A stretch of DNA of 41,479 nt, from the NCBI GenBank assembly GCA_003599195.1, contig QZIZ01000102.1, forward strand, positions 1 through 41,479. The letters run 5' to 3'. Source of the DNA: Deltaproteobacteria bacterium (GTDB lineage: Bacteria; Desulfobacterota; Desulfobaccia; Desulfobaccales; 0-14-0-80-60-11). This document shows, piece after piece, positions 3,997 to 16,145 of the stretch. A program made the position numbers and the translations under genes. The notes beneath the pieces were generated by a model. It saw only the letters and a list, made by a program, of their open reading frames with translations. It was not told the DNA's origin and searched no databases. Position 1 is the stretch's first letter. Each line of letters begins with the position of its first letter.

Positions 3997-4107
3997 ATGG
4001 ATTCAGAGCATTCCCTCAGCCTTGAAGCCGGCGGTGTTTTTAGACCTTCGAGGCCACACGCCTGGCAAGGGAGTGTTATGATCGAGTACGGAAGATATGT
4101 CGGTTAA
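3997..4107 (+). other. Possible short upstream reading frame overlapping the radical SAM start
   Basis: A 36-codon frame runs from ATG 3997 through a second ATG at 4078 and stops at 4105-4107, eight bases inside the following radical SAM gene. The second ATG has the best Shine-Dalgarno nearby (AAGGGAG at 4067-4073), whereas the radical SAM ATG at 4097 has only a weak GAAG two bases away. A nine-residue leader (MIEYGRYVG) could therefore feed ribosomes into the radical SAM gene by coupling. It could equally be chance. Confidence 0.25.
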
Positions 4108-5305
4108 AGCTGCGAAAATCTACCAGGAAAGGCCCTTATTCAACCGCTTTGTCGGCCTGATACGGCAGAACCCCCACATGTTGGTCACCATGGGGTGGGA
4201 GGCTTATCGCCACAAGGTGGGCATTAACGTGAATCGCCGTTTCTTCCCGACCTGGAGCCCCCTGCCGGGATACCTGCATCTCAACCTGACCAGAAGGTGC
4301 AACCTGAAGTGCCGCATGTGCATCCAGCATCGGCAGGATGACGGGGCCTCCGGCGGCCTCAGCTGGTATAACCCCGCCCGGGAGCTGCCGCTGGAGGTAT
4401 GGATCAACCTCCTGGACCAGTTTAAAGGCTTTCGCCCGCGGTTATATGTGACCGGCGGGGAGCCCATGCTTTATCGCCATTTCCGGGAGTTTTTGCTGGC
4501 GGCCAAGAAACGGGGCTTCGTGGTGAATCTGCAAACCAACGGCATTCGCCTGGCGGAGGTGGCCGACTTCCTGGTGGACCTGGGAGTGGAGTTGATTAAC
4601 ATCTCGGTGGACGGGCCCCAGGAGGCGCATGACCGCGTCCGGGGACCGTCGTCCTTCCGGCGCACCATGGAGGGAATCAGGGCTCTGGTCGCAGCCAGGA
4701 GAAGACTGAAACGGCCCGGCCCCATCCTTTTTATCAACAGCGTCATCTGCAAAGACACCCTGGGGGTCCTGGACCAGATGGTGCCTCTGGCCCTTGACCT
4801 GGAAGCGGACTTCCTGCACTTGCTGCATACGGATTTTAATTCTTCGGCCAACGTGGCCGTGCACAACAGCCTTCTCTCTCCTAAATTCGCCCAAGCACAC
4901 GGCCTGGACCTGGTTTCTCCTTCCCTTCCGGAAGGGGAGTACTACCGAAGCGAGATCAGCCGGGAGGATCTGCCCCAACTCCTGGCGGGGGTGGAAAAGG
5001 CCCGCAGTCAGGCCCGGGGCCGCATAAAACTGATCTTTCATCCGGAACTGCCCCGGGAGCTGATCGAACCTTATTATTTTGACCTGAAGCACCCTTTTCC
5101 CCAAAAATGCAATTCCCTTTGGAAGACCTGCCGGATTTTGCCGGACGGCACGGTGTCGCCCTGCCTCCACATGGTGATGGGCAACATCAAGGAGCAGTCC
5201 TTCAGGGAAATCTGGAACGGCCCCCGCATGCGGCAGTTTCGGAAAGTGATCGCCCGGCGGCTTTTTCCGGGGTGCGCCCGCTGCTGCAGCCGGGTATTTT
5301 CCTGA
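4097..5305 (+). CDS. Radical SAM/SPASM domain protein (tandem copy 1)
   Basis: A 402-residue radical SAM enzyme. The CxxxCxxC cluster ligands are C68, C72 and C75 (CNLKCRMC). TGGEPMLY is the SAM-binding GGE motif, and NISVDGP is the usual beta-strand motif after it. The last ~60 residues carry a Cys-rich SPASM-like region (KCNSLWKTC, LPDGTVSPCLH, GCARCC) that should bind additional Fe-S clusters. SPASM enzymes modify peptides or proteins, or mature cofactors. No precursor peptide is evident beside it. Copy 2 follows 10 nt downstream and is clearly homologous along its whole length, so this is a tandem duplication. The substrate is unknown. Confidence 0.9.
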   Translation: MSVKAAKIYQERPLFNRFVGLIRQNPHMLVTMGWEAYRHKVGINVNRRFFPTWSPLPGYLHLNLTRRCNLKCRMCIQHRQDDGASGGLSWYNPARELPLEVWINLLDQFKGFRPRLYVTGGEPMLYRHFREFLLAAKKRGFVVNLQTNGIRLAEVADFLVDLGVELINISVDGPQEAHDRVRGPSSFRRTMEGIRALVAARRRLKRPGPILFINSVICKDTLGVLDQMVPLALDLEADFLHLLHTDFNSSANVAVHNSLLSPKFAQAHGLDLVSPSLPEGEYYRSEISREDLPQLLAGVEKARSQARGRIKLIFHPELPRELIEPYYFDLKHPFPQKCNSLWKTCRILPDGTVSPCLHMVMGNIKEQSFREIWNGPRMRQFRKVIARRLFPGCARCCSRVFS

Positions 5306-5315
5306 GCGTTCGAAG

Positions 5316-6533
5316 ATGTTGAGAGAATCACAGGAAAAGACGCAGCCGCATTACTCCAGGCGGTCCATGGTGGGCCGCACCTGGCAAATGATGCGAAGCA
5401 ACCCCGGCATGATCTGTACCCTCCTGAGGGAAGAATACCGGCAAAGATGGGGCATCGCCCTGGACCGCCGCTACCGGCACGGGAAGAGCGGCTGGCCGGT
5501 GAGCCTCAATCTGGATCTGACCCGGCGCTGTAATCTGAAGTGCCTCATGTGCGAGCAGCACCGCCATCAACCGGGGACTTCCACCGCTCTGAGCTGGTAT
5601 GACCCGGCCCGGGAACTGCCCTTGGCCGCCTGGGTGAACCTGCTGGACCAGGTGGCCGCCTGGCATCCCCGGCTCTATATCACCGGCGGAGAGCCCTTGA
5701 TTTACCCTCACTTCCCGGACTTAATCCGGGAGGCCAAGAAACGGAAGTTGGTGATCCATCTCCAAACCAACGGCACCTTGCTGGAGAAAGCCGCGGACCT
5801 GCTGGTGGACGCGGGGGTGGAGATGGTGACGGTCTCCCTGGACGGCCCGCCGGCAGTCCATGAGCGCATCCGGGGCCAGAAGGGCGCGTTCAGCCGCAGC
5901 CGCCGGGGGATCGCCGCCCTGGTGTCGGCCCGGGGGCGCAACGCGTCGCCGCTGCTGCTCATTAACTGCGTCATCTCCAAGGCCAATATGGCCTTCCTGG
6001 ATGAGATGGCGCCCCTGGCCCAGGAGTTGGGGGCCGATATCCTGCAGATGCAGCACACCATTTTTAATACCGCCGGCAATATCGAACGCCATAACCGCTG
6101 GCTCTCCCCGGAATTTGCCCGGAGCCAGGGATTGAATCTGGTCCTTCCTTCCATTCCCGAAGGGGAATATTACGAAAGCGAAGTCACCGCCGCGGATCTG
6201 CACCGGTTGCAGGACGGCCTGAGAAAGGTGCGGCGCCGGGCTGATGGCCGCGTGCGGCTCCAGTTCTTTCCCGACTTGCCGGCGGAGCTGCTCGACCCTT
6301 ATTACCTGGATCTCAACCACCCCTTCCCCCAAGTCTGCCAGGCCTTATGGAAGGGGTGCCGGATCTTGCCGGACGGCACCGTGTCTCCTTGTTTACATCT
6401 GGTGGCCGGCAACATCACCCGGCAGCCTTTCCGGGAAATCTGGAACGGCCCCCAGATGAGAAAGTTCCGGCAACTTGTCGGCAAGCGCCTTTTTCCCGGC
6501 TGCGCCCGGTGCTGCAGCCGGAGCTTTACCTGA
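5316..6533 (+). CDS. Radical SAM/SPASM domain protein (tandem copy 2)
   Basis: A 405-residue paralogue of the preceding gene. The cluster motif is C72, C76, C79 (CNLKCLMC), with TGGEPLIY, VSLDGPP and a Cys-rich tail (VCQALWKGC, LPDGTVSPCLH, GCARCC) in the same positions. Long blocks are shared, such as SWY-PARELPL, LQTNG, WNGP-MR-FR and LFPGCARCCSR, while the first 50 residues and the mid-region have diverged. This suggests an old duplication with kept catalytic machinery and altered substrate or partner. Copies may act on the same product in sequence, or as a heterodimer. No recognisable precursor peptide lies nearby. Confidence 0.9.
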   Translation: MLRESQEKTQPHYSRRSMVGRTWQMMRSNPGMICTLLREEYRQRWGIALDRRYRHGKSGWPVSLNLDLTRRCNLKCLMCEQHRHQPGTSTALSWYDPARELPLAAWVNLLDQVAAWHPRLYITGGEPLIYPHFPDLIREAKKRKLVIHLQTNGTLLEKAADLLVDAGVEMVTVSLDGPPAVHERIRGQKGAFSRSRRGIAALVSARGRNASPLLLINCVISKANMAFLDEMAPLAQELGADILQMQHTIFNTAGNIERHNRWLSPEFARSQGLNLVLPSIPEGEYYESEVTAADLHRLQDGLRKVRRRADGRVRLQFFPDLPAELLDPYYLDLNHPFPQVCQALWKGCRILPDGTVSPCLHLVAGNITRQPFREIWNGPQMRKFRQLVGKRLFPGCARCCSRSFT

Positions 6534-6550
6534 GGTCAGATGACCGCGTG

Positions 6551-7717
6551 GTGATCAAGGACTTTTTTACCCGTTTTGTGGAAGTCCTGCACCGGGAGCG
6601 GGTTTTTCCCCTGCTGCTGGCAGTGACCCTGCTGGTCATTTTGGGAGGTCTGGGCTTTTCCCTGTTCGAGTCCCAGGAGGGTTACTGGCATGCCCGCTTT
6701 GGCGCGGGTATCTGGTGGGCTCTCGTCACTCTCACCACCGTGGGTTATGGAGACGTGGTGCCCACGACTTTCGGAGGGCGCCTGGTGGGGGTGGGCCTGA
6801 TGTTGGGCGGGGTGCTGAGCCTGTCGCTGCTCACCGCCACCGTGGCCTCAGTATTCGTGGAACGCAAGTTCCGCCGGGGGAGAGGTTTGGAAGCCATTAA
6901 GATTACCAATCATATTCTGATTCTGGGCTGGCACTATGACGGAGAAATCCTTCTGGAGCAACTGCTCCGGCGCCTGTCCGAACTTATGCCGGTGGTGCTG
7001 GTCAATAAGCTCCCTCCCGAGCAATTGGAGGGCTTGAAGGAAAGATTCCCCACCTTTGATTTGCAATACCTGTGGGGTGATCCCTCCCGGGAGGAGATCC
7101 TGGAGAAGGCCAACGTGCGCCAGGCCTCCAAGGCCCTGATCCTGGCGGACCGCCAGGAGGGAGAGACCGCCGAGCAGGTGGACCAGCGCACCCTGCTCAC
7201 CGTCCTCACCTTGAAGTCCATGAATGCCAAAATCCGCATCCTGGCGGAGCTGCTGCGCCCGGAAAACCGCCCCCACCTGGAGCGGGCCGGGGTGGATGAG
7301 GTCCTGGTCCGGGGTCAATACGACAGCTTATTGTTGGCCGGGGCCCTGGCCGCGCCGGGTCTTTACCATATCTTGACGGCCTTGCTCACCGTGGAAGGGC
7401 AGAACCTCTGGCCGGTGGCGGTGCCGGCCCGGTTCCATGGGCGGACCTTGGGAGAGCTGGCCGCTTATTTGAAGGAGCGCCATCAGGCCCTCCCCGTGGC
7501 CATCTATACCGAGGGCCGAGCCCTGGCCCTGGATGACCTGTTATCCGGCGAGCCCTCGGGCATCGACGAATTCATCCGCCGCAAATTCACGGAAAGCGGC
7601 ATGACCCACCTCTTCGGCCGCACCAAGGTGGATTGCCAGATCAACCCTGCTGACTCCCAGATTTTGGGACCCCATCAATTCGTGGTGGTTATTGCCGCCA
7701 GGCGGCCGGCCCTATGA
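6551..7717 (+). CDS. Two-TM potassium channel with C-terminal RCK (TrkA-N/TrkA-C) domain
   Basis: Read from GTG 6551 (GTG 6548 is possible) the protein has 388 residues: helix 1 at about 18-39, a pore loop with selectivity filter TVGYGD at 63-68, helix 2 at about 76-104, then a cytoplasmic RCK domain and a TrkA-C-like end. The earlier in-frame extension to 6347 lies wholly inside the radical SAM gene and is rejected. The Rossmann glycine motif after the membrane part is ILILGWHYDG rather than GxGxxG, so NAD or ATP binding may be altered. The gene overlaps the next, a cyclic-nucleotide-binding protein, by ATGA, which suggests that protein helps gate the channel. Confidence 0.88.
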   Translation: MIKDFFTRFVEVLHRERVFPLLLAVTLLVILGGLGFSLFESQEGYWHARFGAGIWWALVTLTTVGYGDVVPTTFGGRLVGVGLMLGGVLSLSLLTATVASVFVERKFRRGRGLEAIKITNHILILGWHYDGEILLEQLLRRLSELMPVVLVNKLPPEQLEGLKERFPTFDLQYLWGDPSREEILEKANVRQASKALILADRQEGETAEQVDQRTLLTVLTLKSMNAKIRILAELLRPENRPHLERAGVDEVLVRGQYDSLLLAGALAAPGLYHILTALLTVEGQNLWPVAVPARFHGRTLGELAAYLKERHQALPVAIYTEGRALALDDLLSGEPSGIDEFIRRKFTESGMTHLFGRTKVDCQINPADSQILGPHQFVVVIAARRPAL

Positions 7718-8214
7718 CCGTGCATTGCGAAAACCTGAGGAAAATTTCCCTCTTCCAGGACCTGGAAGATAAGGAAATCCAGCAGGTGGTTAAATGCACC
7801 TCGCTGCGGAATTTTACCGCGGGAGAGGCGATCCTTAAGGAAGGGGAGACCGGGGATAGCTTATTCATCATGTGCCAGGGGGAGGTGGAGATCACCAAGG
7901 CCTTGACCCTCATTCTCGAAGAGGATACTCCCAAGGAAAAGGTGATGGTTCGCCTCCGGGCCGAAGACGGAGTCTGCTTCGGGGAAATGGCCTTGCTGGA
8001 AAACGAGGCCCGCTCCGCCACCGTCACCGCCAGCACCCCCTGCACGCTGCTGGAACTCCACCAAAAGGAATTCCTGGCCCTGGTCCGGGAAAACCCAGAG
8101 ATGGGCCTGAAAATCCTCCTGCGGCTGGCCCAGGTGCTCTCCAGGTACTTAAGGAAGTCCAACCAGGACGTGATTAAACTCACCACCGCCCTGGCCGTGG
8201 CCCTGGGCGGATGA
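7714..8214 (+). CDS. Stand-alone cyclic-nucleotide-binding domain protein
   Basis: A 166-residue single-domain protein of the CRP/CAP ligand-binding fold without a DNA-binding helix-turn-helix. It shows LRNFTAGEAILKEGETGDSL near the N-terminus and the phosphate-binding cassette FGEMALLENEARSATV, with G90, E91 and R100 as the ligand-contacting residues. The C-terminal helix (ILLRLAQVLSRYLRKS) is the usual lid or dimer helix. Its ATG overlaps the K+ channel stop by four bases, so the two are translationally coupled and probably made in fixed ratio. By analogy to cyclic-nucleotide-gated channels it may be a detached regulatory subunit; that is inference. Confidence 0.85.
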   Translation: MTVHCENLRKISLFQDLEDKEIQQVVKCTSLRNFTAGEAILKEGETGDSLFIMCQGEVEITKALTLILEEDTPKEKVMVRLRAEDGVCFGEMALLENEARSATVTASTPCTLLELHQKEFLALVRENPEMGLKILLRLAQVLSRYLRKSNQDVIKLTTALAVALGG

Positions 8215-10584: not shown

Positions 10585-11910
10585 TTACTGCCGGCCCAGG
10601 TAGGCCTCGAGCAAATGCGGTCCTTTATCCTGAAAGAACCGGTCGATCTCCTGAAAACCGGAGGCCAGCAACTGCCGGGTTGCCGCATACTTACCTGACG
10701 CGTCCGCTCCCGGCTCGCCCCAATGGAGCCGGGCCTCCACTTCCTGGGGAGCTTCTTCCCAGGTTTTCAGCGCCAGGAGCAGGGCCCGCAAATCCCGGCC
10801 CCGGACCCGGTGCTTCAGGGTATCGTTGCCCGACAGGGCGTCCAACAGGTAATCCTCCCCCCGGTCCCGGCCCAGGCGGTGGAGGGCCGCGCGGCGCAGC
10901 AGACAGGGATAGCAGTAGCCGCACTCGCCCCCACCTCTGCCCCGCCAGCGGGAGGCCACGGGCCGGGCGCAGGAACTGCTTTGGCTGGCCAGCTTCCCCA
11001 ATAATTCCGGGTTTTGGCAGCGGCCCAGCAATTCACCCTTGGTGAGGTATTGATAGGGGTTGATCAGGGGATTTTTAATGCCCGCGTCCCGCCACAGGCG
11101 GGTGATCTGCTCCAGGAAATAAGGATGGGTGGTGCGGGTGGTATAAGACCCCAGGCGGTTCGGGGTCAAAGGCGGATTGAGGCTGACCCAGCCGTTTTCG
11201 GGGATCAGCAGCGGCGTCTCCGGCCCGAAGGAGGAGGCCGCGCTCAGTCCCAGGGCCAGATACAACAGCGAGCGGCTCCTCAGAGTCAGCTCCGGGGCCT
11301 CCGGGAATTGCACCCGCAGGTTCAGGTGGTGTACCTGGTCAGGGCCGTAATGATTCATCAGGACTGCGGCCAGGTTCTGCTGCACTGCGGCCAACTGGCC
11401 GTAGTCGTGATGGCTCAGCAATAACAGGCGCTTTCCGCCTTCCAGTTGGTCGACGGCCCCGGCCAGGGAGTCGAGGCCGCCGGAGAAAAGGGCCGCCGCA
11501 TCAGGCCGCCAGGACTGCTCCCACCTGCCGGTAAAGCCCGGGTTGAGAGGAGACTCCCTGGCCTTGAGGGTCCAGAGGTCGCCGCTGAGGAAGTTCAAGG
11601 CCTGGGTCAAGCGGGGGAAAAGCCCGGCCCATTTTGGGGTTGTGGGTAAGTGAAGGACGATCTCCCGGGTCCAGGCGTCAGCCGCGGCACTCCGGGGCAG
11701 GAGCTTATCCCCGGCCCAGACCCCAAGAGCCGCCAGGAGAAAGGCGGTTACCGCGGGAGACGGCGGGGACGGGTGAATAAACAACTTTTCAAGGTTATGG
11801 TGGAGGGGATAGCCGCCTCTCCCCGGCTCATCCAGGTGGATGACGGCAGTCATCCCGGGCGGTGGCCGGCGCTTCTCGCCGGGAGCCCGGAGGTAGAGAT
11901 GGTCAGGCAT
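10585..11910 (-). CDS. qatC: QueC-like protein QatC of the Qat defence family
   Basis: A 441-residue protein. Its ATG at 11910 has AAGGA upstream; an in-frame GTG at 11946 is less likely. The N-terminal ~130 residues are an extension absent from housekeeping QueC. A PP-loop ATP pyrophosphatase signature follows (LFSGGLDSLAG, about 143-148), then the QatC-like block ENGWVSLNPPLTPNRLG...RTTHPYFL, and four zinc ligands C314, C330, C333, C336 (CGYCYPC). QueC makes preQ0 from carboxy-deazaguanine. QatC-type enzymes belong to the QatABCD anti-phage system and are thought to act on a protein partner. QatB is encoded directly upstream, separated by a 134-bp palindromic element. No QatA ATPase or QatD nuclease is nearby. 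Confidence 0.82.
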   Translation of the reverse strand: MPDHLYLRAPGEKRRPPPGMTAVIHLDEPGRGGYPLHHNLEKLFIHPSPPSPAVTAFLLAALGVWAGDKLLPRSAAADAWTREIVLHLPTTPKWAGLFPRLTQALNFLSGDLWTLKARESPLNPGFTGRWEQSWRPDAAALFSGGLDSLAGAVDQLEGGKRLLLLSHHDYGQLAAVQQNLAAVLMNHYGPDQVHHLNLRVQFPEAPELTLRSRSLLYLALGLSAASSFGPETPLLIPENGWVSLNPPLTPNRLGSYTTRTTHPYFLEQITRLWRDAGIKNPLINPYQYLTKGELLGRCQNPELLGKLASQSSSCARPVASRWRGRGGGECGYCYPCLLRRAALHRLGRDRGEDYLLDALSGNDTLKHRVRGRDLRALLLALKTWEEAPQEVEARLHWGEPGADASGKYAATRQLLASGFQEIDRFFQDKGPHLLEAYLGRQ

Positions 11911-11983
11911 ATCGTCCTTAGTCAGGTTTGAAAAGACAGGCCTCACACAAAGACGCCAAGACGCAAAGTAAGGCGCAAGTATT

Positions 11984-12117
11984 TATACTGAGCGACTTAA
12001 TTAGCCGCGCTTAGCATTCTCTGCGGCCTCTGCGCCTCTGCGAGAAAAAAGGGTTTCTCGCAGGGGCGCAGAGAGCGCAGAGATGATAATGCGCAATTAT
12101 TTATGTCGCTATGTACA
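11984..12117. mobile_element. MITE-like palindromic element, copy 1
   Basis: A 134-bp element with 13-bp terminal inverted repeats (TATACTGAGCGAC at the left; the right end reads TGTACATAGCGAC on the other strand). Nearly the whole element is an imperfect palindrome meeting around CTCTGCGAGAAA and TTTCTCGCAG. A second copy lies at 16205-16339. It encodes nothing. It lies between qatB and qatC, and a separate CGCAAAG-type repeat precedes it at 11945-11975. Confidence 0.75.
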
Positions 12118-12146
12118 GAAATAATGGCCCGCAATGATTGTCGAGA

Positions 12147-12827
12147 TCATTCCTGGAGCCGCCCCAGCATCTTTTCCAGGGCCAGGGTCACCCATTGCCA
12201 GCCCGCCAGGCCCCGCCACTGCTGGGGAGGCGGCGGTTCATCCAGCTCCATTTCTCCGGCCTGGACAATCCAACTCCTGAGGCCTGCCAAACCCTGCCGC
12301 CACTGGCCGTAGCTGCGGCCGGTTGCCTCCAGGGATTCCCCCAGGTCCAGGGTCAGGCGTTGATAGAGCGCCTCGGCCAGGAACCGGGCCACCGCCTGGG
12401 CTGGCGATGGCGGCGGCGCTCCTTCCAAACCATGCAGCACCATAACCAGGGAGGACCGGGCCACCGCGGCTTCCAGGCCGCCGTCGGCCTCCAGCAACGT
12501 GCTGGCCAGCACGGGCCGGGCCGTCTCCTGGAAAGGCCCCGGCTCGGAGGAACCTGTGGTAGCACCCCAGGCCGCGTCCCACCCCCGGGAAGCAGCCTCG
12601 CTGAGAAAAGCCCCCAAATTCTGCGCCGCCTTCCGGGTCAGCCGGAATTCCGCGGCCAAGCCTTGACCAGACGCGCCGTCCTCTCCCAGGGCCGCCAGAT
12701 AGCGGGCCACCACCTCCCGGGCTTCCAGGCCCGCGCCCTCTTCCGGGGCCAGATACCTGCCGGCCGCGGCCTTGGCCCGCCGCCATCGCCAGGTGGTGGG
12801 GGCGCGTCGCGCGCTGGAAGTGCCCAT
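12147..12827 (-). CDS. qatB: QatB-like protein, partner of QatC
   Basis: A 226-residue protein starting at ATG 12827 with GGAG six bases upstream. It opens with MGTSSA, the MGTS-type N-terminus characteristic of QatB, and contains the family block RKAAQNLGAFLSEAASRGWDAA followed by a helical region and a C-terminal helical part ending LALEKMLGRLQE. QatB has no known catalytic motif. From memory, recent work on QueC-like defence enzymes reports a deazaguanine-type modification of the N-terminal Gly exposed after Met removal; the conserved Gly2 here would fit. The gene lies between a heptamer repeat and a MITE-like element. Assignment rests on the N-terminus, the helical block and the adjacent qatC. 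Confidence 0.72.
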   Translation of the reverse strand: MGTSSARRAPTTWRWRRAKAAAGRYLAPEEGAGLEAREVVARYLAALGEDGASGQGLAAEFRLTRKAAQNLGAFLSEAASRGWDAAWGATTGSSEPGPFQETARPVLASTLLEADGGLEAAVARSSLVMVLHGLEGAPPPSPAQAVARFLAEALYQRLTLDLGESLEATGRSYGQWRQGLAGLRSWIVQAGEMELDEPPPPQQWRGLAGWQWVTLALEKMLGRLQE

Positions 12828-12839
12828 GATTGACTCCAA

Positions 12840-12950
12840 GTGATCAGTGATCAGTAATCAGTGATCAGTGATCAGTAATCAGTGATCAGTGGTCAGTAAT
12901 CAGTGATCAGTGATCAGTGGTTGTGAACCGAAACCGAAGACCGAAGACCT
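12840..12950. repeat. Tandem heptamer array (RRTCAGT), about twelve copies
   Basis: From 12840 to about 12920 the sequence is an almost uninterrupted run of 7-nt units of the type GATCAGT, AATCAGT and GGTCAGT. Unlike the other sites there is no long reverse-complement arm, though each TGATCA is itself palindromic. It passes into a second short heptamer series (ACCGAAG type, about 12925-12950). It separates the cobalamin radical SAM gene from qatB. Confidence 0.8.
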
Positions 12951-12979: not shown

Positions 12980-14290
12980 CTAATTCTTCGCCAACCGCTT
13001 CAACCGCGTGTATCGTTCCCAGGAGAACTGCGGCCAGCAGGGGAAAAGGGAATTGTTGTGTAACAGGGGGTCGCTTTCCAGGTCGTAGCGGGACGCGGCC
13101 ACGGCCTGGGGCCAAAGCGCGGTGCCGGGGATGGGGGAGTATTGGGCCAGGACCGGGGCGGCTCCCAGTTCTTTGACCCGGAGGATGGAGTTGACCACTT
13201 CCTCCTCCTCCTGGCCGGGCAGGCCGATGAGGAGATAAACGCCGATTTCCTCCGGACGGAACCCCGCTTCCCTAAGATTAGCCAGGGCTTCCTCCAATTC
13301 CCCGGCCTGGATTTTTTGATCCAGGCGCTCCAGCCCCAGAGCAGTGGTCTCCACCCCCAGGCGCAGGGTGGCGAATCCGGAGCGCTGCAGCCAGCGGGCC
13401 ACCTCCGGGGTGATCAAACGGGTATGAAGGCCGTTGGGGGTGTGGAAGCGGAAAGATAGGCCCCGCCTTGCCAGTTCTTCCAGGATGACCAGCAAGTGAT
13501 TTTCTGGGTCCAGAAGCAGGGCGTCATCGTAAAAAGCCACGTCCTGGAGACGCAAGCGTTCTTGCCAATATCCCAATTCCTCAACCACCGCCAGGGGCGG
13601 GCGGCGCCGGTAGTGCGGCTGCAGCAGGCGGGAAGCGCAATAGAGGCAGTTCAGGGGGCAGCCCCGGGAGGTGAGGATGGGGAGATAAGAGAGGTGGGAG
13701 AGAAGGTGCAAAGCCGGGTAGGGGAGGGCATCCGAATTATCCGGAGCCGGACCGGCAGGGACAGGCAGCCCCGCGGCCGCCAGATGTTTGAAGATGGACT
13801 CCTCACCGGGGCCGGTTACTACCATGTCTGCCGCGCTGTGGGCCCGGGCGTGCTCCGGGCAGAGGGTGGCGTAGATACCCCCCATGATTACGGGAGTTCC
13901 GGGGAATTGTTCCTGGGCCGAAAGGATAGCAGCCTGGACCCCCGGGTACCAGTAAGTCATGAGGGAGGTGACCAGGATGGCGTCCGGCTTAGGTATGGCC
14001 GCCAGCCGCGCCCGGAAATCGGCCGCGGTGATACCGTAACGGCCGTAGCGCCGGGGGATGCCGTGGAGCGCCGGGGGAGTCGGCGCCGTCTCCTTGGGAT
14101 ATCTCCCCACGCCGAAGGCCCGGTCCTGGGTATGGGGAGTGTCCAGGCAATCCAGGAGATGGACTTGATAACCCTGGCTTTCCAGAAAAGAAGCCAGATA
14201 AAGCAGGCCCAAAGGCCTGGCGAAAAAATCGTAGGCCGCGAAATCGTAAATCCAGGGATTGATGAGGAGAAGGACCGGACTGGTTCCCAT
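12980..14290 (-). CDS. B12-binding-domain radical SAM enzyme
   Basis: A 436-residue protein of the cobalamin-dependent radical SAM class. Residues 1-180 form a B12-binding-like Rossmann domain (LLLINPW, PLGLLYLASFLESQGY, VIMGGIYATLCPE, VVTGPGEES). The radical SAM core follows with cluster motif CPLNCLYC in TSRGCPLNCLYCAS, then FYDDALLLD, LRLGVETT and a GLPGQEEEEV segment. Typical members methylate or rearrange unactivated carbons. The DxHxxG base-off cobalamin motif is not obvious. It starts 2 nt after tilS ends, so it is in that operon. The protein also happens to begin MGTS, like QatB two genes downstream. Confidence 0.85.
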   Translation of the reverse strand: MGTSPVLLLINPWIYDFAAYDFFARPLGLLYLASFLESQGYQVHLLDCLDTPHTQDRAFGVGRYPKETAPTPPALHGIPRRYGRYGITAADFRARLAAIPKPDAILVTSLMTYWYPGVQAAILSAQEQFPGTPVIMGGIYATLCPEHARAHSAADMVVTGPGEESIFKHLAAAGLPVPAGPAPDNSDALPYPALHLLSHLSYLPILTSRGCPLNCLYCASRLLQPHYRRRPPLAVVEELGYWQERLRLQDVAFYDDALLLDPENHLLVILEELARRGLSFRFHTPNGLHTRLITPEVARWLQRSGFATLRLGVETTALGLERLDQKIQAGELEEALANLREAGFRPEEIGVYLLIGLPGQEEEEVVNSILRVKELGAAPVLAQYSPIPGTALWPQAVAASRYDLESDPLLHNNSLFPCWPQFSWERYTRLKRLAKN

Positions 14291-14292
14291 TG

Positions 14293-15765
14293 CTAAGTTA
14301 TACTTTTGCGGCAGGCTTGCAGCATCTCCCAGATACGTCCGGTCCCAACGCCGGCCGAGGAGATTTCCAGTTCCAGCAGATTCCGGCTTCCGGCGGTTAG
14401 TTTCACTTCTTCGGCCAGACTGAGCCCGGCCACCCAGATAATCTCGCCCCGGCTGAGCACCAGCGGAATATAGGGCCGCAGCCAGCGGGGGATTTTGCGG
14501 TCCACCAGGAAATCCTGGAGTTTCCTGCTCCCGGCCGCGCCCGCGGGCCGGAAGCGGTCTCCGGGTTGGAAGTAGCGGACTTCCAGGGGAAAATGCACCC
14601 GGTCCAGATCCATCCAGGCGATCTGAGCTTCCCGGGGCCGGGAGGCCTTAGAAATACAAGGTCCGCTGTCCAAGCGCCAGCTCCAACCCCCGGTCTCGAA
14701 GCGGCCGGGGCAGGAGGGCAGCAGCCCGCTCTCCCGGGAGGGAGGCGGCAGGCGGCGCAGGATGTGCAGTTCCCTCCCCGCCCGGGCCACGATGCAGGTT
14801 CCCAGGGGAATTTGTCCCCCGCTTTTGCCGCCCCGGGCCAGGTCCAGGACCGCGTCTACCTGGACGGCGCTTAGGGGATAATCCTCCAGGACCTGGTGCA
14901 ATGCCCGGCGCACCACCAATTTCCGGAGAGTACCCGGCAATTGGAAAAATCCGGCCAGATGCAGCCGGTAAAAGTCCGGGGCCGCCGTCTCCACCACCTC
15001 GGCCCAGGCCCTGGCGGCCTCCGGGGCCACCAGCCGCCCTTCCTCCTGCAGCAGGGCCTGGGCCCGCCAGACGGCCTCCTTGATGCGGGGATTGTATTCC
15101 CGTAGGTGCGGCAGCAAGTCCAGCCGCACCCGGTTGCGGAGGTAATCCCGCTTCAGGTTGCTGGAGTCCCGGCAATAGGAGAGGGATTCCTGCTCCAGCC
15201 AGGCCAGGATCACCTCCTTGCCCACGGCCAGCAAGGGCCGGAGCAGACCCTCCGGGGTCGCGGGCGGCATCCCCGCCAGGCCCTCAGGCCCGGCGCCGCG
15301 CAGCAGGCGCAGGAAAAATAACTCCACCTGGTCGTCTGCGGTATGCCCCAGGGCCAGTTTTTGGTAGCCATGGCTGCGGCAGGCGTCTTTCAGAAAATTA
15401 AGGCGGAGCCGCCGAGCCGCCATCTGCAGGGAGAGCTTCTCCCGGCCGGCCAGATCCCGGGTATCGCCCTGCCCGAGATGGCAGGGCAGAGACAATTTTT
15501 GGGCCAAGGCGGCTACGAATTCGGCCTCTTCCCGGGACTCCCGGCCCCGCAGGCCGTGGTCGAAATGAGCCACCCCCAGATTCAGGGGCATTTCAGGACG
15601 AAGACGGTGCAGCAAATGCAGGAGGGCCACCGAGTCCGGACCCCCGGAAACGGCCACCAACACCCGGTCCTCCGGCGCACAGAGATTTTCCTGGCGCAGG
15701 CGCCGGGCCACCCACCGGGGCAGGTCGCGAGCGGCGGGAGAGATTGCCAATAAGGGGGGAATCAC
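14293..15765 (-). CDS. tilS: tRNA(Ile)-lysidine synthase
   Basis: TilS attaches lysine to C34 of the CAU-anticodon isoleucine tRNA, changing it to read AUA; this is essential in most bacteria. The N-terminal PP-loop ATPase motif is VAVSGGPDSVALLHL, followed by LGVAHFDHGLRG and LGHTADDQ. The C-terminal part has the TilS substrate-binding and C-terminal domains (RYFQPGDRFRPAGAAGSRKLQDFLVDRKIP). GTG 15765 is chosen: it overlaps the preceding regulator's stop as GTGA and has GGAA just upstream, giving 490 residues. An in-frame TTG at 15783 has no ribosome binding site. Confidence 0.93.
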   Translation of the reverse strand: MIPPLLAISPAARDLPRWVARRLRQENLCAPEDRVLVAVSGGPDSVALLHLLHRLRPEMPLNLGVAHFDHGLRGRESREEAEFVAALAQKLSLPCHLGQGDTRDLAGREKLSLQMAARRLRLNFLKDACRSHGYQKLALGHTADDQVELFFLRLLRGAGPEGLAGMPPATPEGLLRPLLAVGKEVILAWLEQESLSYCRDSSNLKRDYLRNRVRLDLLPHLREYNPRIKEAVWRAQALLQEEGRLVAPEAARAWAEVVETAAPDFYRLHLAGFFQLPGTLRKLVVRRALHQVLEDYPLSAVQVDAVLDLARGGKSGGQIPLGTCIVARAGRELHILRRLPPPSRESGLLPSCPGRFETGGWSWRLDSGPCISKASRPREAQIAWMDLDRVHFPLEVRYFQPGDRFRPAGAAGSRKLQDFLVDRKIPRWLRPYIPLVLSRGEIIWVAGLSLAEEVKLTAGSRNLLELEISSAGVGTGRIWEMLQACRKSIT

Positions 15766-16145
15766 GGTGTTCCGGTCTGGCAAAGTTGGGTTACGGCTTC
15801 CAGTATGGCTTCTTTGGAAAAGGGCTTGGACAGGAATCGATCCACCAGGCCGGCGTTTCTGCCGATTTCTTGGGGAGGGGGCAGTTCCGAGGAAATGAGA
15901 AGGATGCGGCAGTCGGGCATGGACTCCTTCAGCCGCCGGGCCACCTCCAGCCCGTTTTGCTGGGGAAGGCGATAATCCACCACGGCCAGCTGATAGTGAT
16001 GGCTGCGGCAGGCGGCGTCAATCTCCGCGTCGCCTCCGGCCAGAGAAGTGATCCCGTAGCCGGCCCGGTCCAATATGACCACCAGGGCGTCCCTGGTGCC
16101 GGGATCGTCGTCGATAATCAGAATTCGGTGGTCCATACCGTCCAT
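15762..16145 (-). CDS. Single-domain CheY-like response regulator
   Basis: A 127-residue receiver domain with no output domain. The acidic pocket is D12-D14 (LIIDDDPGTRD), the phospho-acceptor is D57 in AVVDYRLP, and the conserved Lys is in FLSKPFS. It probably relays or buffers phosphate from the kinase encoded just upstream on the same strand (16368-18182). The 222-nt gap between them holds the second MITE-like element. Its stop overlaps the tilS start by four bases, so a signalling gene is coupled to a tRNA-modification gene, probably through operon history rather than function. Confidence 0.9.
   Translation of the reverse strand: MDGMDHRILIIDDDPGTRDALVVILDRAGYGITSLAGGDAEIDAACRSHHYQLAVVDYRLPQQNGLEVARRLKESMPDCRILLISSELPPPQEIGRNAGLVDRFLSKPFSKEAILEAVTQLCQTGTP

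Follow-up and report, generated by a model that had tools for sequence, protein, structure and literature searches.

The qatB–qatC pair and its surroundings

The window, meaning the whole 41,479-nucleotide stretch of DNA that was analysed, carries on its minus strand a qatB homologue followed by a qatC homologue, and both open reading frames are intact at the coordinates assigned beforehand in a first-pass annotation. The qatB homologue (12147–12827, minus strand; start MGTSSARRAPTTWRWRRAK) encodes 226 amino acids and was assigned by profiles, relatives, and fold. Its protein opens MGTSSARRAPTTWRW, and its ATG at 12827 is preceded by GGAG. The Met-Gly-Thr-Ser codons (12816–12827, minus strand), invariant in 17 aligned QatB rows, hold the putative acceptor, Gly2. 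The qatC homologue (10585–11910, minus strand) encodes 441 amino acids from an ATG at 11910, preceded by AAGGA. The frame is open from a GTG at 11946 (453 amino acids), which is probably not the start, since relatives open M-A-x-x-L-x-L. Three landmarks follow on the same strand: the SGGLDS pyrophosphate (ATP) loop (11467–11484; residues 155–160 of the GTG-started frame), the T270-R271-T272 triplet (11131–11139), equivalent to T278 and T280 of Pseudomonas aeruginosa QatC, and a CGYCYPC motif (10903–10923) that together with Cys326 (10969–10971) supplies four zinc cysteines. Tandem ACTGATC-type repeats lie directly upstream of qatB (12830–12915), and a CTCTGCG/CGCAGAG inverted repeat lies between the two genes (11990–12090); in other genera, the B and C genes overlap or nearly touch.

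Upstream of qatB lies a gene for a B12-binding radical SAM protein (12980–14290, minus strand), the usual neighbor across the order Desulfobaccales, followed by the gene for the tRNA lysidine synthetase TilS (14293–15783, minus strand), which belongs to a conserved block. On the other side, a potassium channel/TrkA-N gene and a cNMP-binding gene (6347–8214, plus strand) occupy a position that in many relatives is convergent to qatC. A di-haem/MauG-like cytochrome gene also neighbors the pair, so that the cytochrome and radical SAM enzyme reported as neighbors in the first-pass annotation are both borne out. Further away, at 4097–6533, two radical SAM-type genes stand side by side as tandem duplicates with about 55% mutual identity, the second with a SPASM domain. 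The radical SAM protein next to qatB itself opens with MGTS and was considered as a second substrate of that kind. Among the relatives scanned, this start occurs in the window and in genome G004 only; the candidate was rejected, and the resemblance is probably a coincidence.

Judged by its sequence, the gene at 10585–11910 (minus strand) encodes a true QatC. The protein scores 319.9 bits against the NCBIfam equivalog NF041925 (cut-off 280), matches the PADLOC QatC model at E 3e-97 and the crystallized QatC 9vlk at E 6.5e-110, and reaches a mere 13.6 bits against the canonical QueC model TIGR00364, below the cut-off of 150.3. It has the N- and C-terminal extensions of the family along with the Thr278/Thr280 pair, SGGxDS, and the four zinc cysteines. 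The TRT triplet, a histidine, SGGxDS, and the four cysteines are kept in all 22 of 22 QatCs of the order, and the SGGxDS loop is identical in all loci compared except for L, V, or I at its variable position. A peptide-pattern search of viral contigs gave no relative of the window QatC.

The partner is more divergent. Against NF041924 the window QatB scores 21.9 bits (E 1.4e-4), short of the cut-off of 100. The profile check proposed in the first pass hence held outright for QatC, while QatB taken alone falls outside and enters its family only by way of its relatives and its fold. Sixteen of 17 QatB relatives match NF041924 at E below 0.1 (the best at 4e-18), 13 of the 17 match a PADLOC QatB model, and the profile of the family finds the solved QatBs 9vll_A (E 1.7e-12) and 9zee_A (E 1.5e-8). 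An AlphaFold2 model of the window protein (pLDDT 88.5) has the predicted all-helical QatB fold and superimposes on the crystal QatB 9y01_A with Z 18.0 over 192 residues at 3.0 Å, the next unrelated entry reaching only Z 4.9. On these grounds, the small helical MGTS protein seen in the first pass (12147–12827, minus strand) is, by its predicted structure and its relatives, a divergent QatB.

Conservation in QatB is concentrated at the N-terminus. Although identity to the window protein drops to 29% among the 17 QatBs, residues M1, G2, T3, S4, R7, P10, W15, R16, A18, and K19 are invariant, and the opening conserved in the order reads MGTSxxR[RK]xPxxxxW; the window protein has the MGTS start as well as the conserved proline and tryptophan. 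In the model, helix 1 begins at residue 13, leaving about 12 residues ahead of it, versus 63 unresolved residues in the crystal QatB. The disordered tail of some 30–90 residues that is common, not universal, in QatBs is absent from the window protein. A short start with P...W(R/S)xAK also occurs in some QatBs of ABCD operons, for example those of Petroclostridium (L089) and Lachnoclostridium (L081); the short tail therefore marks a sub-branch of QatB and not decay. In G004, of the same genus, the ATGGGCACTTCC start of qatB is swapped for a short TTTTCAG repeat (L028:7380–7440) and the MGTS codons are absent, which is either a true loss or an assembly error.

Retention of the pair in Desulfobaccales

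QatB and QatC are each present in 23 of the 29 genomes of the order, and each in 20 of the 22 with completeness of at least 90%; QatB spans all 11 of 11 genera. Where present, QatC is single-copy except in G014, which additionally has a contig with a QatB identical to that of G009, and a long-QatC gene. The identical QatB proteins (contigs L026 of G014, C194, and L040 of G009, C150) suggest that one of the two metagenome-assembled genomes is contaminated with the other. Among the exceptions, G018 has QatC and no QatB was found; in G020, neither was found. In G027, qatB is present and QatC is missing, and the contig stops just past qatB, so that this lack may be an assembly gap. Elsewhere in the phylum QatC is rare: among 395 evenly sampled genomes, it occurs in 17 of 18 belonging to the order and in only 10 of the approximately 377 outside it. 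Those 10 divide into four ABCD operons, four loci in which a long QatC has an MGH partner, a QatC accompanied by D with no A or B found, and a QatC whose short contig also holds an MGTS partner; compact QatCs outside the order are mostly accompanied by A and D. At one locus (L022, genome G044), QatC is followed by QatD with neither QatA nor QatB, and an open frame of 467 residues and unknown kind lies upstream.

The pair usually lies in one syntenic setting. A block consisting of the K+ channel and cNMP protein genes convergent to QatC–QatB–radical SAM is common to both families of the order, and the QatCs of the order group into a single clade (SH-aLRT 99) that branches in step with the genera. 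Shared gene order together with a single clade that follows the genera points to vertical descent at an ancestral locus, and the shared block argues against a prophage or mobile context. Around the locus lie housekeeping genes, namely those for TilS, phosphomannomutase, SAM synthetase, AdoHcyase, and RuvB. Defence systems are usually scattered among genomes; fixation throughout an order is unusual for one.

A further reading makes the pair part of a larger operon, in which the adjacent B12/radical SAM enzyme would make or alter the group that QatC attaches to QatB. The radical SAM gene adjoins qatB in most genomes of both families, and it still stands beside qatB in G014, where qatC has moved away. 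In G012 and G009, however, it is located on a different contig and qatB has other neighbors, and G016 has B and C, yet no radical SAM match was found there. Moreover, TilS and a kinase, which continue the block in one of the two families, are kept equally well there by synteny alone. We consider this larger unit improbable.

Neither QatA nor QatD was found in the window by home-built profiles, in accord with the first-pass annotation: the operon holds no KAP NTPase of the QatA kind and no TatD nuclease of the QatD kind, and none stands beside the pair in any relative of the order. In 43 of the 80 named loci fetched from GTDB genomes by means of the QatC alignment, the profiles find a complete ABCD operon; in one more they find B, C, and D, the contig there being too short for A to be visible. 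In the draft genome to which the window belongs (81% complete), no qatA or qatD turned up elsewhere, a finding that the first pass had named as one that would refute its reading. No KAP NTPase was detected in that draft, and its single TatD lies unlinked on another contig; at 107 bits against the QatD profile, compared with 258–364 for true QatDs, it was set aside as an ordinary housekeeping TatD. The closed genome G024 (a single contig of 3,282,536 bases) likewise contains both genes of the pair and lacks a KAP NTPase. In the order as a whole, just one genus (g3) has a strong KAP NTPase; its 65–70 bits to the QatA profile, on which almost every full-length QatA passes 450, mark it as a different KAP protein. 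Seven other genomes of the order gave weaker KAP matches of about 20 bits. The order-wide profile search thus returned no QatA, and no fragments of A or D were traced in the order.

Both genes are under purifying selection. Within the genus, dN/dS is 0.16–0.23 for qatC and 0.27–0.43 for qatB, rough values because synonymous sites are fairly diverged. In three genomes, G008, G012, and G014, the two genes have been separated onto different contigs, each with its own neighbors, and neither has been lost. In G012 and G014, both genes are inside their contigs with unrelated neighbors at the break; in G008, another gene stands upstream of qatC and qatB lies near the end of another contig. That the two part company and are nonetheless both retained is most easily explained by a joint function.

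These results decide between the two readings offered in the first pass, a remnant of a degraded defence island and a two-gene core with a role of its own. A degraded qatABCD island would account for the missing A and D, ABCD being the usual form of the family, as in the 43 complete operons and the BCD locus among those fetched. It is nonetheless rejected as extremely improbable: the pair is intact in nearly every genome, dN/dS is well below 1, active-site residues are kept, the QatCs are a single clade in an ancestral chromosomal block, and A and D have left no trace. Intact in almost every genome of the order, the pair has been handed down as a functioning unit; it is not debris. The two-gene core, by comparison, gains support from order-wide retention, purifying selection, kept residues, and survival of the genes when unlinked.

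A proposed QatB–QatC enzyme–substrate pair

We favor the reading, at a probability of roughly 0.6, that QatB and QatC form a self-contained enzyme–substrate pair, passed down vertically as part of the core genome of Desulfobaccales and independent of QatA and QatD. By analogy with the P. aeruginosa proteins, which form a complex (Gao et al., PMC13279940), QatC would bind QatB. It would then activate, with ATP, a carboxylate substrate that may be CDG or a related compound, while removal of Met1 would expose the amine of QatB Gly2; QatC would couple the activated substrate to that amine, and the modified helical QatB would be the active species. In P. aeruginosa, MGTS/Gly2 of QatB and QatC catalysis are essential for defence (PMC13279940), and every residue reported as essential in that study that could be mapped is kept in the pair. 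Gao et al. proposed that QatB is modified at its N-terminus in the manner of type IV CBASS deazaguanylation, a modification they did not detect, and they could not reconstitute the QatC reaction (PMC13279940). That QatC forms a complex with QatB and modifies its Gly2 in Desulfobaccales is an inference.

The identity of the donor deserves separate consideration. Canonical QueC is encoded in most genomes of the order (G016 gave no match, G028 and G006 weak ones only), so that CDG should be made in most of them. However, the donor may not be CDG, given that Thr-Thr replaces Tyr-Asp in QatC and that the published reconstitution failed. In G007, QatB and QatC are in frame across one TAA; a predicted fold of the read-through product (alignment set A4) has a mean pLDDT of 67, with QatB residues 1–6 and the QatC loop expected to face QatB below 50, values too low to weigh for or against docking of Gly2.

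Several observations count against the enzyme–substrate reading, namely the short tail of QatB, which may not reach the active site, the genome without MGTS (G004), the genomes with QatC alone (G018) or with neither gene (G020), and the order-wide fixation that would be unusual for defence. As to biological role, the pair may serve immunity that has become fixed or may have been domesticated; any part in immunity or stress is putative. Domestication, in which the same Gly2 chemistry would serve a housekeeping or regulatory role and no longer immunity, is a possible reading, though one we rate below even odds. It draws on the near-universal presence of the pair at one syntenic locus among housekeeping genes in single copy, the loss of A and D, the keeping of both genes after unlinking, and the rarity of QatC elsewhere in the phylum, where compact forms mostly travel with A and D. 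Set against it, QatBC alone protects E. coli from phage lambda (PMC13279940), so BC suffices for defence; QatB changes at about double the rate of QatC, a pattern compatible with an arms race and with loose constraint alike; and no metabolic partner was identified.

Whichever role applies to the proposed enzyme–substrate pair, it has consequences for how the family is understood. The 2026 demonstration that QatBC is the minimal active part of qatABCD came only from laboratory deletion of A and D; Desulfobaccales presents the natural counterpart of that deletion, kept across an order, and no description of an order-wide lone QatBC was found in the published literature. In this order, the reaction of QatC and what triggers it can be sought in a clean natural setting free of A and D, the short-tailed QatBs suit mass spectrometry, and protein–nucleobase (or similar) conjugation may exist outside patchy immunity. 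Tentatively, a QueC-type pair for N-terminal conjugation, a kind familiar until now from immunity, could here have turned into a housekeeping or regulatory module that belongs to the core genome of an entire order; taken together with the actinobacterial and MGH/long-QatC pairs described below, the two-gene unit might then be the basic form, and QatA and QatD add-ons.

Comparison with known systems

The recurrence of BC pairs without A and D, which the first pass had proposed to look for, extends beyond the order to Actinomycetota. Lone pairs in Streptomyces, Nocardia, Micromonospora, and Actinophytocola (L100–L116) resemble those of Desulfobaccales in consisting of B and C only, with a short-tailed partner opening [MV]GTSTRWxGP...W; across 11 loci only B and C are conserved, with no third gene. 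They differ in forming a separate, long-branched clade in which T280 is replaced by serine (TRS for TRT). A third kind, found in at least six phyla, combines a QatC-like protein of 580–710 amino acids with a partner of about 260 amino acids opening MGHxRLGxLPRTRxW, as at L025:7671–10533, L104:3957–6601, L119:6066–8872, L208:5746–8656, and others. The two genes overlap, and no QatA or QatD was found within the flanks of these modules. The partners at L025 and L104 gave no Pfam or PADLOC match, and a profile built for the MGH partner recovered it from all three additional genomes. In a survey of the QueC family, about 34% of QatC-cluster genes adjoin qatA or qatD (PMC13329287); the lone pairs found here explain part of those away from them.

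Canonical QueC shares with QatC the SGGxDS loop, the zinc cysteines, and the Rossmann core; in the genome of the window it is a separate gene (contig C165), and QatC did not replace QueC in E. coli (PMC13329287). QueC and Cap9 carry a CDG-reading Tyr-Asp where QatC carries Thr-Thr. Type IV CBASS, with Cap9 and a CD-NTase opening MGGS, likewise pairs a QueC-fold enzyme with a protein substrate, and just as Gly2 is the acceptor there, Gly2 may be the acceptor in QatB. Yet QatB is unrelated to the CD-NTase, and QatC has N- and C-terminal extensions. QatABCD (9y01/9y02, 9zee, 9vll) agrees with the pair in the family and active site of QatC, the fold of QatB, the order of B and C, and an MGTS N-terminus followed by P...W. 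From this system the Desulfobaccales pair departs in having neither QatA nor QatD, in a QatB tail of about 12 instead of about 63 residues ahead of helix 1, and in being fixed at one chromosomal locus throughout an order instead of scattered.
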